Part shown: piece by piece, positions 4,809 through 24,953 of the stretch | Position numbering within the stretch: position 1 is the stretch's first letter | Layout: the number at the start of each line of letters is the position of its first letter | Notes under the pieces: generated by a model | What the model saw: the letters and a program-made list of their open reading frames with translations, nothing else | The model's database searches: none | Told to the model about the DNA's origin: nothing | Position numbers and translations under genes: made by a program | Virus record (IMG/VR): IMGVR_UViG_3300025648_000079 | Location: 1-25,000 of that record | Origin: a virus | Strand: one strand, 5' to 3' | DNA: 25,000 bases

Positions 4809-5173
4809 CGATAATTCACAATACCTTACTGCTAGATCAGACTGCTTGGGATTTGGTTCTCGATCTCAATGGAAACATTGCCTTAGCTGGCGCACCTTAT
4901 GCAATAGCGCAAGACGTGGCTTCAGTTACTCGTACATTTTTAGGCGAATGCTGGTACGACACTACTCAGGGAATACCCTATTGGCAGCAAATTCTTGGGG
5001 GGTTTCCTCCCTTGCAATATGTAGCTGAAAAACTTCAGGATGCAGCTTTAACGGTTCCTGACGTAGCTGCAGCTCAAGCAACTTTTACGTCCTTCCAAAA
5101 TCGTTCTTTGGCTGGGCAAATTCAAATTATAGATACGGATGGAGTCGCAAATAATGTGGCTTTTGGAGGATAA
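4805..5173 (+). CDS. Baseplate wedge protein, gp25/gpW-like
   Basis: A 122-residue protein between spike and J-like genes, the conserved place of the gp25/W-like wedge subunit that triggers sheath contraction. The sequence contains WDLVLDLNGNIALA, an AIAQDVASVTRTFLGECWYDTTQGIPY stretch read here as the family's helix then the Y.....GIPY turn, and later DVAAAQATF. The AQDV......L.GE..YD...GIPY pattern is common in this family. An overlapping start with the previous stop and a GGAGGATAA stop-and-RBS arrangement before the next gene show tight coupling in the tail operon. Confidence 0.82.
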   Translation: MTIIHNTLLLDQTAWDLVLDLNGNIALAGAPYAIAQDVASVTRTFLGECWYDTTQGIPYWQQILGGFPPLQYVAEKLQDAALTVPDVAAAQATFTSFQNRSLAGQIQIIDTDGVANNVAFGG

Positions 5174-8154: not shown

Positions 8155-8214
8155 AAAATAGTAAATGTATTTTTAGTAAAAACTTTTTAAAAATTAACAA
8201 TATAAGGAAAAATC

Positions 8215-8400
8215 ATGTTTTCAATCAAGCAATTCCTCATTAATGCGTCTTCAGAAGTTCGTCAAGAGATACGTAAGTTGATTAATGAGATTGAAGCCAG
8301 CATTCCTGCTGAAGCTCCTGTTGTCGAAGAAGCACCAGCCCCAGCAAAAACAAAGGTTAAAACTGCAGAAGCAGAAGCCTATACACCTGCTGCGGAGTAA
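8215..8400 (+). CDS. Small Ala/Glu/Pro-rich protein of unknown function
   Basis: A 61-residue protein with an amphipathic N-terminal helix (MFSIKQFLINASSEVRQEI) and a low-complexity tail alternating Ala, Pro, Glu and Val, then a few Lys. I do not recognise a family. The preceding 60 bases (8155-8214) are very A+T rich, end in ATAAGGAAAAATC before the ATG, and could hold a promoter that separates fibre and lysis genes, although no -35/-10 pair stands out. The composition of the tail resembles the basic H1-like protein encoded two genes downstream, but with opposite charge. Confidence 0.65.
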   Translation: MFSIKQFLINASSEVRQEIRKLINEIEASIPAEAPVVEEAPAPAKTKVKTAEAEAYTPAAE

Positions 8401-11930: not shown

Positions 11931-12155
11931 TTATAAATTGCCGTCCATGATTTCACCAAGAATCAACTTGGCACGATTTAAAGTCTGACGAGCACGTTCT
12001 ACTGCACCCATTGCCATTTCCTCTTGCGCATCGCTCATCAAGCCAGCAACAACCATATTGGCTCCGCTTAACTTATAAGTAATGCAGCCTTGGATTTGAG
12101 CAATAAATTCGGCACTGTTGCAGCCGTAACATTGGAGGTCAAAGTCTTGGTTCAT
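11931..12155 (-). CDS. Hypothetical small early protein, first gene of the leftward cluster
   Basis: The ATG at 12155 is chosen because CACGAAAGGA, the extended ribosome site shared by several genes in this window, ends seven bases before it; the longer frame from 12182 would place that motif inside the gene. The product has 74 residues: MNQDFDLQCYGCNSAEFIAQ, with two cysteines close together, and a helical second half (SDAQEEMAMGAVERARQTLN). No family is recognised. A promoter at 12211-12239 and a tandem repeat in the leader point to controlled early expression. Confidence 0.75.
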   Translation of the reverse strand: MNQDFDLQCYGCNSAEFIAQIQGCITYKLSGANMVVAGLMSDAQEEMAMGAVERARQTLNRAKLILGEIMDGNL

Positions 12156-12162
12156 TTTGATT

Positions 12163-12172
12163 TCCTTTCGTG
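12163..12172 (-). promoter_or_regulatory. Extended ribosome binding motif CACGAAAGGA before the 12155 start
   Basis: Exact copy of the shared motif, seven bases from the ATG. It decides the start over the longer in-frame option. Confidence 0.75.
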
Positions 12173-12239: not shown

Positions 12240-12270
12240 CATTTATTTTTGGATTTTGTTGCTATTTAGC

Positions 12271-12397
12271 AAAAAGGGTGGGGGTGTCAAACCACGAAAG
12301 GATCCAGCATTGCGCTGAGTAGTAGATTTTAGGGATACCAGCCCTGAATGACACCCCCATAGAGGTTTGGCAACCACCTTTGCTGCAAAGCTAAGGT
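12271..12397 (-). ncRNA. Candidate structured small RNA with an anti-Shine-Dalgarno segment
   Basis: No ORF fits this gene-free block, but the minus-strand transcript folds well by eye. A 10-bp closing stem GGGGGTGTCA (12358-12349) with TGACACCCCC (12289-12280) encloses two hairpins: AGGG/CCCT (12345-12342 with 12334-12331, loop of seven) and CAGC/GCTG (12317-12314 with 12308-12305, loop of five). Upstream, CTTTG/CAAAG and GGTT/AACC hairpins precede the stem. Five U follow four bases after the stem (12275-12271), as in an intrinsic terminator. Between the second hairpin and the closing stem is an unpaired stretch holding ATCCTTTCGTGG, the exact complement of the CACGAAAGGA ribosome motif of several early genes in this window. 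A perfect TATAAT lies upstream. Ends are estimates. Confidence 0.55.
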
Positions 12398-12403
12398 AGT
12401 GCC

Positions 12404-12433
12404 ATTATAAGGTGAGGCTACTCGCTGCGTCCA
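12404..12433 (-). promoter_or_regulatory. Candidate promoter of the small RNA, TGGACG - 18 bp - TATAAT
   Basis: On the minus strand, TATAAT (plus 12404-12409) is a perfect -10 box. A -35 candidate TGGACG (plus 12428-12433) matches four of six bases at 18-bp spacing. Transcription would start near 12397 and enter the hairpin block. Bases 12434-12495 hold nothing else that I can recognise. Confidence 0.5.
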
Positions 12434-12495: not shown

Positions 12496-12624
12496 TTAGC
12501 CTCCGCAGCTACAAACCATTTTCCCGTTATATCCGGGAGTGCAACGGTACGGAGCGTATACAGGGCATGAAGCTGCTGCTGCAAACGATACTGTCAACAA
12601 TACTACGGCTAGTGCTTTTTTCAT
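12496..12624 (-). CDS. Short exported Cys-rich peptide (possible lipoprotein)
   Basis: A 42-residue product starting MKKALAVVLLTVSFAAAASC, a clear signal peptide with either a signal peptidase I site after the AAAA stretch or a lipobox-like AAASC. The mature part is PVYAPYRCTPGYNGKMVCSC then GG, with four cysteines. It is too short for ordinary gene finding. The ribosome site is weak (AAAAAAGAAAATCGT). Comparable PVYAPY.C..GYNGK..C.C peptides occur, from memory, in betaproteobacteria and their phages; this is unverified. It is the last gene of the recombination operon, 13 bases after the HNH gene. It may act in the periplasm or outer membrane. Confidence 0.75.
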   Translation of the reverse strand: MKKALAVVLLTVSFAAAASCPVYAPYRCTPGYNGKMVCSCGG

Positions 12625-12637
12625 ACGATTTTCTTTT

Positions 12638-13089: not shown

Positions 13090-13512
13090 TCAAAACGGAA
13101 TATCCTCATCCATATCACCTAGACCACCACTACCTGCCCCTTGATTCTGAGGCTGACCACCTGCGCCACTTTCACTTGGCTTTCCTCCGAGCATCTTCAT
13201 GGACTCTGCCACGATTTCAGTCGAATATTTTTCAATGCCGTTGGCATCGGTAAATTTGCGAGTGCGAAGCTTTCCCTCGATATAGCACTGGGAACCCTTT
13301 TTAAGGTATTGCCCAGCGATCTCAGCCAGCTTGCCAAAGAATGCAACCCTATGCCATTCTGTAGCTTCTTTTTGCTCTCCTGACTGCTTGTCCTTGTATT
13401 TGTCAGTGGTAGCCAGCGACAAGTTGGTTACTGCGTCCCCACTGGGCATATAGCGAGTTTCAGGGTCACGACCTACATTGCCGATCAGGATTACTTTATT
13501 TACTGAAGCCAT
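13090..13512 (-). CDS. ssb: Single-stranded DNA-binding protein
   Basis: The start at 13512 ([20 protein letters not shown]) is preferred over the longer frame because all SSB proteins begin this way and AGAGGGGATCC precedes it. The product has 140 residues with an OB fold through about residue 105 ([48 protein letters not shown]). A Gly/Gln-rich linker follows, and the acidic tip DMDEDIPF binds partner proteins as in host SSB. It protects single strands in phage replication and recombination, and its neighbours are ERF and Gp157-like genes. It overlaps the upstream gene by 17 bases. Confidence 0.96.
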
Positions 13513-13906: not shown

Positions 13907-14410
13907 TTATTTGATTGCCAAAGACTGTCCAGCAGTCAGCTTAGCACCTTCAACAATAACACCAGCTTTCAGATCTTCCTTGAGACGATTCTTATTTAAG
14001 GTCGGGGCAGGTGGTTCAGGGATGTCGAAATACTCGTCCGGGATCATGTCTTGATTGAAAACCTCAACTGCTGGAGGATTCTTGCGAATGCTCAAAACAA
14101 AGTACGGGCTTTCAATCTTGGTAATGCCAGTGCGGTTCATGTTGTCCAGCAAATACTGACGAATGCAATCCGCTTTGGCTTCCAGCGATTTTCTACGCTC
14201 TGCCATTGCTTTTTCAGCATTCTTGATAGCTTCCGCAGAAGCCTCAAGGTTACGAACAAACATGGCAACGTTGGTCGCTTTGACTTCTAGGTCCCCGGAG
14301 AGACCCTCCAGCGTATCGGCAAACGTTTGCTCATCAATCTCCATGTCCTGCAGTTTTTGCAGGTCGACTAAGTATTGGTCGGCAATGTTGTAGAGAGTAA
14401 GGTTTGTCAT
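13907..14410 (-). CDS. Siphovirus Gp157-like protein
   Basis: A 167-residue protein with a long helical N-terminal part (EGLSGDLEVKATNVAMFVRN, IKNAEKAMAERRKSLEAKAD) followed by IRQYLLDNMNRTGITKIESP, a VLSIRKNPPAVEVFNQDMIP segment and IPDEYFDIPEPPAP with NRLKEDLKAG. This order is the Gp157 family pattern. Members are found next to SSB and annealing genes, and some reports link them to phage resistance to host defence; the biochemical role is not settled. The start overlaps the ERF stop by TAATG. The operon context supports a recombination function. Confidence 0.9.
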   Translation of the reverse strand: MTNLTLYNIADQYLVDLQKLQDMEIDEQTFADTLEGLSGDLEVKATNVAMFVRNLEASAEAIKNAEKAMAERRKSLEAKADCIRQYLLDNMNRTGITKIESPYFVLSIRKNPPAVEVFNQDMIPDEYFDIPEPPAPTLNKNRLKEDLKAGVIVEGAKLTAGQSLAIK

Positions 14411-15069
14411 TATGCGATCCCCAATTCTGCTTTTTTAGCGTCTTTTTTCGTGATAAATGATTTGATGGCTGCTTGATCGCCTTGAGCTTGAGCAACCCGG
14501 TAAGCCGCCTTGTAAGCTTTTGTCAGCTCGTCCTCATCGGCTGCAGCATCAATAGTTGCCAAGAAGTCGGCAACCTGAGTCACAGATAATGGGGATTTGT
14601 TGATCGGGGCTGGATTTGGAGCTGGCGCAGTACGGGGCGCAACTTCATGCGTTTGATTCTCGGTGTCGTTGTCACCCACAGTAGGAATGGCAAACGCTTG
14701 GAGAGCTGCGTATTTGTACGCTGCTGACATGGCTTTATTGGTAGCCTTGTCTCCGCTATCCATTGCCTCGCCAAAAGTTTTGACGGTGTGCTTGCTGCCG
14801 TCCTCGGCACAAACAAAGTCAAACTCAACCTCTACGGTAATGTAGAAAAGAGCTCCACCATTTTTGCTGACACGCTCAACGCACTCACGAGCCATAACCC
14901 GAGGCAGAATGCAAAGCTTGTGCTCTGCAAGCAATGGGCTAATTGCGTTGAAAATGTCATCAATACCCCGGAACTTGTACCCAACTCCTTGAGTGTTGGT
15001 ACGACTTTTGGTAATACCGACTTTGGCAAGTTCGGCTTGAACTGCATTGATTGCTTGATAAACTTTCAT
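14410..15069 (-). CDS. erf: ERF family single-strand annealing protein
   Basis: A 219-residue protein. Conserved ERF features are visible: an N-terminal helix (INAVQAELAKVGITKSR), YKFRGIDDIFNAISPLLAEH, then a GEAMDSGDKATNKAMSAAYK motif near residues 120-140, which is the family hallmark. A low-complexity Pro/Ala linker leads to a helical C-terminal domain (ELTKAYKAAYRVAQAQGDQA). It anneals homologous single strands in phage recombination together with SSB. The start is set by CCACGAAAGGA seven bases upstream. It is followed by Gp157-like and SSB genes, the usual recombination set. Confidence 0.95.
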   Translation of the reverse strand: MKVYQAINAVQAELAKVGITKSRTNTQGVGYKFRGIDDIFNAISPLLAEHKLCILPRVMARECVERVSKNGGALFYITVEVEFDFVCAEDGSKHTVKTFGEAMDSGDKATNKAMSAAYKYAALQAFAIPTVGDNDTENQTHEVAPRTAPAPNPAPINKSPLSVTQVADFLATIDAAADEDELTKAYKAAYRVAQAQGDQAAIKSFITKKDAKKAELGIA

Positions 15070-15076
15070 GATGATT

Positions 15077-15086
15077 TCCTTTCGTG
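15077..15086 (-). promoter_or_regulatory. Extended ribosome binding motif CACGAAAGGA before the ERF start
   Basis: Exact motif, preceded by another C that also matches the candidate small RNA (11 pairs). Seven bases separate it from the ATG. Confidence 0.75.
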
Positions 15087-15088
15087 GA

Positions 15089-15385
15089 TTAATCTAAATA
15101 ACCTGAATTCAGGTTTTCTACTGCGTGGTTTGTAGCTTGTTGCTCCATGCGTTCATAGCATATTGCCCAAAGCTTCAGACCCAACTTATCATACTCCTTC
15201 CGTTGAAGGTAGTCTTCAATAGTTTCAATGTCATCTTTGGAAGCTTCGCTAATCGACTCAACAAAATTATTAAAGTCGTTAGGGTTATAGTTTTCCTCCA
15301 TAAGCTCCTCAACTTGAGAATCGATCTTATCGTCCTCATCGTATTGGTCTTGGTATGGCTGCTCGAGCCAAGAATCGTAATTCAT
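15089..15385 (-). CDS. Acidic hypothetical protein, first gene of the recombination operon
   Basis: A 98-residue protein with many Asp and Glu (MNYDSWLEQPYQDQYDEDDK, QVEELMEENYNPNDFNNFVE) and a helical C-terminus (LGLKLWAICYERMEQQATN). The opening M.YD.WLE.PYQ.QY is seen, from memory, in many small phage proteins without a known function. The start is set by CACGAAAGGAT seven bases upstream. A DNA-mimic or host-protein-binding role could be imagined from charge, but nothing in the sequence shows it. Confidence 0.78.
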   Translation of the reverse strand: MNYDSWLEQPYQDQYDEDDKIDSQVEELMEENYNPNDFNNFVESISEASKDDIETIEDYLQRKEYDKLGLKLWAICYERMEQQATNHAVENLNSGYLD

Positions 15386-15392
15386 AGTCTTA

Positions 15393-15402
15393 TCCTTTCG
15401 TG
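15393..15402 (-). promoter_or_regulatory. Extended ribosome binding motif CACGAAAGGA before the 15385 start
   Basis: Exact motif followed by T, giving 11 matches to the complement in the candidate small RNA. Seven bases to the ATG. Confidence 0.75.
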
Positions 15403-16442: not shown

Positions 16443-16451
16443 ACGAAAGGA
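16443..16451 (+). promoter_or_regulatory. Extended ribosome binding motif ACGAAAGGA before the 16457 start
   Basis: Nine-base core preceded by A instead of C; five bases to the ATG. Confidence 0.7.
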
Positions 16452-16456
16452 GCCCA

Positions 16457-17218
16457 ATGAACTTCTACCCGTTTCACATAGGCGATTACATATCGCATAC
16501 AAGCCATTTAAGCGATGCTGAAGACCTCACCTACCGAAGGATGATGGATCTGTATTACCAAGGCGAGGAGCCCTTCACAAGCGTTCTTTTGGTCGCTAGG
16601 AAAGTCAAATCTACCATTGACATCGTAGAGGCTTTGCTTGAGGAATTTTTCGTTAAGCAGGAGGACGGCTGGCATAATGAGAGAGCCGACAAGGAAATTG
16701 CGAAGTATCGATCTAAAGCGAATTCCGCACGAAAAGCGAATCACATCCGTTGGGAATCCAAATCAGATCTGAAATCAGATCTGAAATCAGATAAGGAATC
16801 AGAACTGAAATCATATCAGGTTTCAGATACGTTTCAGATCCTAACCAAGAACCAAGAACCAAGAACCAATAACCAAGAACCAAGAACCAATAACCAAGAA
16901 CCAAAGATAAATACTAAGACTCCTGACGGAGTTAGTGAAACTGTTTTTCAAGATTTCGTAAAGTTGAGGAAGGGTTTAAAAGCACCCGTCACAGAAACGG
17001 CTTTAAAGGGTCTACAACGAGAGGCAGCAAAAGCTGGTATCAGCCTTCAGGAAGTTTTAGAACTCTGCTGTCAGAACGGCTGGAGGGGCTTTAAAGCGGA
17101 TTGGCTGAAGGACAGGAACCAGTCAAAGACGGCTGGCACTCGAAATCAGGAAGTAATGTCAGGGTTAACCCGAGGTTTAATTGGAGGAGACAACAATGCC
17201 CGACTACTTGGAAAGTGA
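16457..17218 (+). CDS. DUF1376-type replication initiation protein (lambda O-like)
   Basis: A 253-residue protein. The N-terminal MNFYPFHIGDYISHTSHLSD, AEDLTYRRMMDLYYQGEEPF and the following DNA-binding region to about residue 95 (KEIAKYRSKANSARKANHIR) are the DUF1376/YdaU pattern, winged-helix proteins in the O position of phage replication modules. Residues 98-155 are low complexity, coded by two sets of direct repeats (ESKSDLKSDLKSDKES; NNQEPRTNNQEPRTN). The C-terminal domain (VFQDFVKLRKGLKAPVTETA, GWRGFKADWLKD) probably binds the helicase loader. The repeats likely form the replication origin inside the gene, as in lambdoid O. Its last 23 bases overlap the P-like gene. Confidence 0.9.
   Translation: MNFYPFHIGDYISHTSHLSDAEDLTYRRMMDLYYQGEEPFTSVLLVARKVKSTIDIVEALLEEFFVKQEDGWHNERADKEIAKYRSKANSARKANHIRWESKSDLKSDLKSDKESELKSYQVSDTFQILTKNQEPRTNNQEPRTNNQEPKINTKTPDGVSETVFQDFVKLRKGLKAPVTETALKGLQREAAKAGISLQEVLELCCQNGWRGFKADWLKDRNQSKTAGTRNQEVMSGLTRGLIGGDNNARLLGK
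16760..16840 (+). repeat. 12-bp iteron-like repeats, possible origin of replication
   Basis: AAATCAGATCTG occurs exactly at 16760-16771 and 16772-16783, followed in register by AAATCAGATAAG (16784-), and looser copies at 16797 (AATCAGAACTG) and 16808 (AAATCATATCAG). TTTCAGAT at 16821 and 16832 adds copies with inverted flanks. The unit holds the palindrome CAGATCTG. Position inside the initiator gene matches lambdoid origins. Confidence 0.7.
16844..16906 (+). repeat. Nine tandem 7-mers (ACCAAGA/ACCAATA)
   Basis: Nine consecutive 7-base units, ACCAAGA or ACCAATA (last ACCAAAG), with a higher-order period of 21. One strand is nearly purine-free of G-C balance (A/C only), and an A+T-rich stretch follows (GATAAATACTAAGA). 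It could be a strand-opening element next to the iterons, or only a slipped-strand repeat coding NQEPRTN. Confidence 0.85.
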
Positions 17219-18568: not shown

Positions 18569-18578
18569 CACGAAAGGA
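18569..18578 (+). promoter_or_regulatory. Extended ribosome binding motif CACGAAAGGA before the 18585 start
   Basis: Exact motif followed by T; six bases to the ATG. It decides this start over the upstream in-frame start at 18549. Confidence 0.75.
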
Positions 18579-18584
18579 TATGCA

Positions 18585-18746
18585 ATGTACGTTATCAAAA
18601 ACGAAGACAACGAAGTAATGCGAATTGTTGGCAGACAAGAGGAGGCTCTTGCAGTTTGCGCTTTGCGTCCCGGCTGGACGTTTAAATGCGTTCGCAAACC
18701 AAAACCAAAATTAGATTTGTCACAATTTGAGGAAGCGTTACTATGA
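18585..18746 (+). CDS. Small hypothetical protein
   Basis: A 53-residue protein beginning MYVIKNEDNEVMRIVGRQEE and ending PKLDLSQFEEALL. The first part looks like two beta strands and a helix, with VCALRPGWTFKCVRKPKPK in the middle. No family is recognised. The start is fixed by the CACGAAAGGAT motif. It overlaps the next gene by ATGA. Confidence 0.75.
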   Translation: MYVIKNEDNEVMRIVGRQEEALAVCALRPGWTFKCVRKPKPKLDLSQFEEALL

Positions 18747-19943: not shown

Positions 19944-20495
19944 ATGGCACGTCCTTCAAAGCTCACTGACAAACAGTGGGAAGAAATCAAAAGCCGAATG
20001 CTCAAGGGCGAGAAGGCTGCGGATCTATCCCGAGAGTACGGGGTGAGTAAGACATCGATCAGCGAACGGCTTTCCGAACGAATCCGAACAATGAAATCCG
20101 TTTCAAATCAATTAGTTACGGCTGAACAGAATTTAAAGGCTTTACCTGTTTCCGAACAAGTTACCGTACTAAACTTTGTGGATGACCTCAAAGCGATCAG
20201 TACGAACCTAGCCAGCGCAGGTAAGTTCGGAGCCATAAATGCCAATCAGTTATCGAGACTGGCAAATCAGCAGCTCAATACAGTGAATGAGGAAAACCTC
20301 CTGACTGGCGAAGGCATGGTCGCACTCAAGACGGTGAGCGCATTGCAAGACATGGCAAACGAAGCCAGCAAAGTTCCCTTGGGATTGCTCAATGCAAACA
20401 AGGAACAAGTGCAGAAATTCACAAGTACCGAAGACTCAAATCTGCGGGAAATGACAGACGAGGCTCTCCTTGCCATCGCAAGCCGAAGCAGCTAA
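19944..20495 (+). CDS. terS: Terminase small subunit
   Basis: A 183-residue protein with an N-terminal helix-turn-helix (MARPSKLTDKQWEEIKSRML, LSREYGVSKTSISERLS), then a long helical part (LVTAEQNLKALPVSEQVTVL) and a C-terminal GLLNANKEQVQKF region. It would recognise the packaging site and recruit the large subunit. The start follows TGAAAGGAATAGTCAGCTA, with a somewhat long spacing. Its last 26 bases overlap the large-subunit gene. Confidence 0.9.
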   Translation: MARPSKLTDKQWEEIKSRMLKGEKAADLSREYGVSKTSISERLSERIRTMKSVSNQLVTAEQNLKALPVSEQVTVLNFVDDLKAISTNLASAGKFGAINANQLSRLANQQLNTVNEENLLTGEGMVALKTVSALQDMANEASKVPLGLLNANKEQVQKFTSTEDSNLREMTDEALLAIASRSS

Positions 20496-24745: not shown

Positions 24746-24937
24746 TTAGTACCTGTTACGGAGCAAACGCTTTGCAGCAGCTAAACGGATCTCATCGGCT
24801 GGAGTGTTTAGACCGGGCAGGATCTGCAGAGCTCGTATCATGTTTTTGAGAGCAGTCTTGTCAGAGTTTCCAGCGATCTTCAAATCAGCAAACTTGGCTG
24901 GATTGTTTTTTGCAAGGTCTTGGTAGTAAGTTGACAT
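24746..24937 (-). CDS. Small hypothetical protein encoded against the packaging operon
   Basis: A 63-residue basic helical protein (MSTYYQDLAKNNPAKFADLK, TALKNMIRALQILPGLNTPA, then IRLAAAKRLLRNRY). The start is supported by ACGAAAGGA seven bases upstream, a shared motif of early genes here. The reverse orientation between the portal and whatever follows to the right suggests a separately regulated gene inserted in the late operon. A DNA-binding or host-interaction role could be guessed from charge, but no family is recognised. The 52 bases between its end and the portal stop show no terminator. Confidence 0.78.
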   Translation of the reverse strand: MSTYYQDLAKNNPAKFADLKIAGNSDKTALKNMIRALQILPGLNTPADEIRLAAAKRLLRNRY

Positions 24938-24944
24938 TTCAATT

Positions 24945-24953
24945 TCCTTTCGT
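24945..24953 (-). promoter_or_regulatory. Extended ribosome binding motif ACGAAAGGA before the 24937 start
   Basis: Nine-base core preceded by T instead of C; seven bases to the ATG. Confidence 0.7.

Follow-up and report, generated by a model that had tools for sequence, protein, structure and literature searches.

The window analysed here is a 25-kb virus record of a tailed phage (IMGVR_UViG_3300025648_000079, positions 1 to 25,000). Genes for tail and baseplate occupy 0.2-11 kb. The minus strand at 13-16.3 kb carries an erf-gam-ssb recombination operon together with a Holliday-junction resolvase gene, and from 16.4 kb the plus strand continues with a replication O-like gene, ninB, terminase and portal genes. 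Tandem repeats within the replication O-like gene (16760-16904, plus strand; the 12-nt unit AAATCAGATCTG repeated 4.8 times and the 7-nt unit AACCAAG 8.9 times) are possible origin iterons of the kind known from lambda O. The gene at 19944-20495 (plus strand), preceding that of the large terminase subunit, matches a PHROG named RNA polymerase sigma factor (E 8e-6); judged by its position, it is more likely the small terminase subunit with an HTH domain. Downstream of ssb (13090..13512, minus strand) lies a compact structured block, which in the lineage of the window is separated from ssb by an HNH gene, a small secreted-peptide ORF and a -10-like TTATAAT. A 42-aa ORF in this interval (12496-12626, minus strand) begins MKKALAVVLLTVSFAAAAS, ends CSCGG and resembles a small secreted Cys-containing peptide; its C-terminus recurs upstream of the block in the related loci L005 and L013. 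Between the end of the block and the start of a 74-aa gene, the segment 12174-12239 (minus strand) holds tandem repeats of 17 nt and 13 nt as well as a promoter-like site, TTGACA-17-AATACT.

A sequence-only reading of this DNA had proposed that the block encodes a small antisense RNA. Comparison with relatives delimits the following parts, all on the minus strand:

12268..12365, minus strand: RNA core (closing stem, pseudoknot, hairpin, seed, 3' ACC and U run), from a 19-member alignment and covariation
12349..12359, minus strand: 5' strand of P1, TGGGGGTGTCA; in relatives, 8 of the 11 P1 pairs show two-sided change
12279..12289, minus strand: 3' strand of P1, TGACACCCCCA; inverted repeat, covariation
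12331..12345, minus strand: P2 hairpin AGGG-CUGGUAU-CCCU; 100% paired, two of four pairs covary
12339-12336, minus strand: 5' strand of the pseudoknot, the P2 loop GGUA
12330-12325, minus strand: invariant AAAAUC, bridging to the 3' strand of the pseudoknot
12321..12324, minus strand: 3' strand of the pseudoknot, UACU; all four pairs changed on both sides, 98.7% paired
12305..12317, minus strand: P3 hairpin CAGC-GCAAU-GCUG with an invariant GCAA loop; all five pairs changed on both sides
12292..12303, minus strand: seed AUCCUUUCGUGG, unpaired in the comparative structure
12277..12279, minus strand: ACC directly 3' of P1; RCC in 19 of 19 aligned members, possible RNase P recognition
12271..12275, minus strand: U run following P1, terminator-like; L012, L017 and L113 have it weakly or not at all
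12404..12433, minus strand: candidate promoter TGGACG-18-TATAAT (TATAAT at 12409-12404); not above chance by scan alone

The core scores 116 bits with our covariance model, R1, and from its sequence the RNA would be about 95-130 nt long on the minus strand. Much of the initial description of the fold stands. The closing stem, given there as 10 bp, is a perfect 11-bp inverted repeat (12279-12289 with 12349-12359), the terminal run of five U is present, and both internal hairpins, P2 and P3, covary, whereas the pseudoknot had been missed; it was first spotted by eye in the alignment, as a pairing of the P2 loop with the linker after AAAAUC. The stretch said to be unpaired is so in the comparative structure, whereas a single-sequence fold pairs much of the seed; such a fold of the minus-strand block is only mildly more stable than shuffles (z -2.1). 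Directly 5' of P1 the window has a further hairpin (12365-12397, minus strand); by eye, L014, L094, L102 and L109 also have hairpins at this position, of unrelated sequence, and none is seen in L009, L012 and L113.

Scanning 2.9 million viral contigs for the Erf protein yielded 80 loci. The block is conserved in the loci closest to the window, whereas the flanks are different, upstream DNA and intervening genes included; more distant members were added by a pattern scan, and the very distant L012 was found by R1 at 39.7 bits (R1 E-values rest on a short calibration). The element is carried by about 20 distinct viral contigs, in minus-strand sense and downstream of ssb. Among 19 distinct aligned members, 97.6% of cells are paired, as opposed to 37-46% in slid controls, and 19 of the 24 pairs show two-sided change. 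Cells with two-sided change number 94 versus 23.7 (sd 3.7) in shuffles, none of 500 shuffles reaching 94. All four pairs of the pseudoknot covary (GGUA/UACU, UGCA/UGCA, UACA/UGUA, GAUG/CAUC and GGUG/CACC), and L012, which had been left out when the pseudoknot was drawn, has GGUU/AACC. The G-U cells of the comparative structure, 17 on the minus strand and 3 on the plus strand, fix the RNA strand as minus. The stem covariation that the sequence-only reading had named as a check is thus very strong, and on the strand it had named. The unpaired parts that do not vary across the family are AAAAUC, the GCAA loop, CCUUUCGUGG within the seed (19 of 19 aligned members) and the CC after P1.

On this comparative sequence evidence, the block is a real RNA family, previously undescribed and absent from Rfam 15, where it had no match at the gathering score and lax thresholds gave chance matches only. 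As far as sequence searches reach, uncultured phages alone carry the family: 50,697 phage records (named phages) yielded no relative of the element at the DNA level. The RNA is also absent from 399 genomes of Burkholderiales, a result of little weight, as these may not be the host group. A seed-free scan found no family member without the seed; the five extra matches of a tighter version were mostly chance matches, as were those that a looser, seedless pattern gave in viral and genome contigs. We also considered a coding role and rejected it, since the 44-aa ORF on the element's strand is not conserved and the length of the element varies by 1-2 nt between members, so that no protein is encoded.

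In relatives the RNA starts 1-300 nt after the ssb stop codon on the same strand, and its orientation follows that of ssb in every member examined. Among short-gap members 1-52 nt separate the end of the SSB tail (...DIPF, stop) from the element, which in L113, L012 and L090 begins 1-14 nt after the stop codon. This same-strand placement next to ssb puts the RNA at the 3' terminus of the recombination mRNA, whether or not the RNA also has its own promoter. Signals for a separate transcript in the window consist, at the level of sequence, of the promoter -10 and the U run. The perfect minus-strand TATAAT noted initially is indeed there, whereas promoter-like matches in the region are not more frequent than in shuffles (3 versus 2.4); a -10-like TTANAAT is kept in neighbours with unrelated upstream DNA. 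Promoter and terminator signals are weak or variable among members, which counts against an antisense RNA.

The ends of the element have a recurrent composition: the first P1 pair is G-C, the preceding base is mostly U and otherwise C, and RCC follows in all 19 aligned members. A G-C first pair, an upstream U and a trailing RCC are what RNase P requires of a tRNA-like stem. Dependence on RCCA has been reported for a pseudoknot substrate of RNase P (PMC12710915). From the first pair, the preceding base and the RCC we hypothesize that the RNA may be matured by RNase P.

The complement of the seed core, ACGAAAGGA, is present in seven copies in the window (at 12163, 12294, 15077, 15393, 16443, 18570 and 24945) versus 0.24 expected, and none of 100 shuffles reached seven. 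Six copies lie 5-7 nt before the ATG of ORFs of 74, 219, 98, 253, 53 and 63 aa; the remaining one, at 12294, is antisense and falls within the structured block. The excess, six copies at starts and one antisense, had already been pointed out and is fully borne out. The six leader copies are:

12163..12171, minus strand: target motif of the 74-aa gene (11931-12155)
15077..15085, minus strand: target motif of erf (14410-15069)
15393..15401, minus strand: target motif of the 98-aa gene (15089-15385)
16443..16451, plus strand: target motif of the replication O-like/primosomal gene (16457-17218)
18570..18578, plus strand: target motif of the 53-aa gene (18585-18746)
24945..24953, minus strand: target motif of the 63-aa gene (24746-24937), 9 pairs only

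These leaders sit in several operons on both strands, and the genes behind them account for 6 of the 17 non-structural genes versus none of the 23 in the structural region. Each leader offers 9-11 consecutive pairs, as originally counted, that of the 63-aa gene being at the low end with 9. When duplexes were predicted for 50 leaders, five of the six motif leaders were among the six strongest. The 63-aa leader, whose duplex energy is moderate, ranked ninth, and first place went to the ssb leader, which is devoid of the motif and pairs through GGGGAUCC; both results count against the antisense reading. The ranking of duplexes fits the antisense mechanism only partly. The ssb duplex may reflect chance complementarity or an additional target. 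A second pairing site seen by eye, between AAUCUA and UAGAUU of the erf leader, was neither colinear nor general and was dropped.

The motif is enriched in all 20 RNA-bearing records (2-14 copies each, with almost nil for a reversed-pattern control), counts that, like the other association counts given here, derive from related sequences of shared ancestry on incomplete contigs and are not independent. Leaders with CGAAAGG before ATG make up 73 distinct contexts with the consensus YCACGAAAGGA, and in 61 of these position -3 is C or U, facing a G of the RNA by G-C or G-U. In RNA-bearing phages such leaders belong to 38 protein clusters, among them Erf, the replication initiator, a DUF932 protein and many small unknowns. 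As ACG precedes AAAGGA in 50 of 101 leaders of phages with the RNA and in 0 of 68 of RNA-free relatives (Fisher p 1e-14), the extension goes beyond ordinary Shine-Dalgarno pairing. An unbiased k-mer count ranks ACGAAAGG top in the leaders of the window and of L360; the same count yields no comparable leader motif in RNA-free relatives. Nor is CACGAAAGGA enriched in 300 genomes of Burkholderiales, with the same proviso on the host group.

RNA and motif occur together in 12 distinct Erf sequences. The erf leader carries the motif in 16 of 16 contigs of the RNA clade (one with an inserted A), as opposed to 0 of the 43 RNA-free relatives listed. Two of the 16, L008 and L015, have the motif and end before the usual place of the RNA (L015 just after erf, L008 less than 1 kb after it), while L012, RNA-free by pattern, proved to hold a divergent copy by model. 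The seed region of L012 reads GUGA, and U stands opposite in three of its four leaders, too few to count. Neither RNA nor motif is found in 64 of the 80 erf loci (L018 onward), with zero motif copies. In the Erf tree the RNA-bearing rows cluster together, and L018-L026, which are without both, are nested inside them at 99/96 support; judging from the sequences, this looks like a joint loss or replacement. The erf leaders of L017 (9970-10000) and L452 (5982-6000) keep CCACGAAA with one or two extra A before AGG (CCACGAAAAGG, CCACGAAAAAGG), which part the seed match from the Shine-Dalgarno core.

One clade departs from this pattern. Near L012, the records L452, L454 and L455 have 3-5 CACGAAAGG leader motifs each and the erf leader CCACGAAAAAGGA, and yet no recognisable RNA was detected in their about 83 kb by the model, with filters on or off; a scan for stem plus RCC plus seed, which recovers the window and the L012 members, finds nothing there either. 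There are three possibilities: a recent loss of the RNA, an RNA located outside the sequenced parts, or a different reader of the motif. Relatives keeping the motif while lacking the complementary segment had been named as the adverse outcome for an antisense RNA; generally this is not what is seen, these three records being contrary. It is mainly on their account that our confidence in the antisense reading is kept at fairly probable. The near invariance of seed and motif core also counts against this reading, in that compensatory changes between RNA and target cannot show, and so do the ordinary Shine-Dalgarno character of the motif core and the partial pairing of the seed in a single-sequence fold. 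In record L454, promoter-leader modules resembling one another (TCATACTTCAATCGT...CCACGAAAGGA) are found at 4840-4900 and 8200-8260, each preceding a different small gene, as though the leaders had been copied as cassettes.

Taken together, the sequence, the conserved fold and its strand, the invariant seed, the shared leader motif and its co-occurrence with the RNA make it fairly probable that the block encodes a trans-acting antisense RNA that blocks translation of an early regulon; as in trans-acting antisense sRNAs, a conserved seed is complementary to several unlinked mRNAs. The proposal of the sequence-only reading is thereby supported in part, stem covariation being clear and the coupling of motif and RNA mixed. 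In the mechanism we envisage, P1 would enclose an H-type pseudoknot (P2 and PK) and the GCAA-loop hairpin P3, leaving the unpaired seed exposed. The RNA would be transcribed from its own promoter, as in the window, or processed out of the erf-gam-ssb mRNA at its 3' end, possibly by RNase P. In the cell, the seed would pair in trans with the extended Shine-Dalgarno motif of early genes, and 9-11 bp across the Shine-Dalgarno, 5-7 nt before the ATG, would exclude the ribosome. The seed resembles the host anti-Shine-Dalgarno tail; to this stretch it adds GUGG, an extension that would distinguish phage early leaders from host mRNAs. Since its source would be the end of the recombination operon, the RNA would accumulate and shut off early genes with a delay, recombination, replication and small early genes being turned down jointly after transcription of that operon. 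As the sequences suggest, the RNA thus probably switches the early genes of the phage off together during infection, and might act at the switch to late expression.

Other readings of the same evidence carry less weight. The motif could be read by something else, such as a ribosome preference or a phage repressor protein of the type of T4 RegA, a protein that turns down many early phage genes at ribosome sites, the RNA being secondary, a modulator or a decoy. This we regard as unlikely, though it is the reading that the motif-bearing, apparently RNA-free records L452, L454 and L455 favour, and the motif core is an ordinary Shine-Dalgarno sequence; against it, the seed is invariant while the RNA stems change freely, motif and RNA are missing together in L018-L026, and the motif is not favoured in Burkholderiales genomes. 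More improbable still is a structured 3' UTR or terminator of the ssb operon, stabilising or ending the mRNA, whose anti-Shine-Dalgarno stretch would act in cis on erf and the 98-aa gene only. The very short gap between ssb and the element in L113, L012 and L090 and the U runs after P1 in most members would suit it; those U runs are weak in L012, L017 and L113, however, a pseudoknot, an invariant seed and a GCAA loop would be superfluous in a terminator, motif leaders occur in other operons and on both strands, and an HNH gene and the small secreted-peptide ORF part the element from ssb in the window.

The sequence-only reading had itself offered a plus-strand alternative, a degenerate leader copy with an unrelated structure. 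An RNA of that strand, displaying CCACGAAAGGA as a structured decoy or leader copy, would be in keeping with the slightly better fold of the plus strand alone (z -2.9 versus -2.1). The bias of G-U pairs, the orientation with ssb and the minus-strand ACC and U run all oppose it, as do the covariation of the structure and the lack, in every member, of a plausible ATG start following the plus-strand motif; we consider this alternative very improbable. Least of all do we expect a structured RNA with an unrelated job, such as host takeover or protein binding, whose seed came to resemble the leaders through descent or by accident. In its favour, plain antisense RNAs rarely contain pseudoknots, and host targets may exist; chance would, however, hardly produce 9-11 nt of complementarity to dozens of unrelated leaders together with the shared presence or absence of RNA and motif. 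With these alternatives weighed, the trans-acting antisense RNA remains our preferred reading.

Of the phage antisense RNAs described in the review consulted, most act on one or a few targets, and none governs many phage early genes at ribosome sites (PMC12197685; open-access literature only). Lambda OOP and P22 sar repress phage genes (PMC12197685), one gene each and antisense to the target region, whereas the RNA described here would use short pairing with many unlinked genes. The closest counterpart is the C4 antisense RNA of P1/P7, which has stems P1-P3 and a loop over a ribosome site and matures when RNase P releases it from a longer transcript by cleavage at the 5' end of P1 (PMC5320573; PMC12197685). 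Like C4 (RF01695), the new element is a small phage RNA with a closing stem around inner stem-loops (about 77-100 nt; P1, P2 and P3 covary here), an unpaired region complementary to phage ribosome sites (here seed CCUUUCGUGG versus CACGAAAGG leaders) and a predicted ribosome-site block in trans; its P1 starts with G, RCC follows, and it is often located at an mRNA 3' end. Unlike C4, which controls ant with two loops, it has one seed for many unrelated early genes, and the pseudoknot, AAAAUC and GCAA belong to the new family, the pseudoknot not appearing in the C4 descriptions consulted. The C4 model found no match in 15 RNA-bearing records (single-family search up to E 10) or around the window block (cmscan, E up to 10), and the window and target genes that were scanned include no recognisable ant (antirepressor) gene. 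By analogy, the new RNA would work like C4 and, given the failed model match, is not filed as C4.

Further parallels are more distant. The CI RNA of P4 is a phage antisense RNA that pairs with phage leader sequences, acting on nearby leaders and causing transcription termination, while by description the targets here are scattered ribosome sites. In bacteria, RNAs of the Staphylococcus RNAIII and RsaE type and streptococcal csRNAs cover the Shine-Dalgarno with a C-rich seed, one seed serving many sites; their U/C-rich seed is without the phage-specific GUGG, and they have no such pseudoknot. T4 RegA resembles our proposal in acting on many early genes at ribosome sites, the proposed agent here being an RNA instead of a protein.

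More tentatively, and with rather less confidence than in antisense action as such, one may picture a single pseudoknotted RNA, cut by host RNase P from the end of the recombination mRNA, as the off-switch of an early regulon. Its genes would be marked by a common extended Shine-Dalgarno address, making the RNA a possible counterpart of T4 RegA; the leader being the address, new genes could enter the regulon just by gaining it. If true, this would be a virus-wide post-transcriptional switch operated by one RNA through an address common to dozens of unrelated genes. The leader address would provide a rule for listing early-regulon genes from sequence alone, and the RNA would constitute a compact pseudoknotted antisense scaffold whose mechanism is testable with a two-plasmid reporter.
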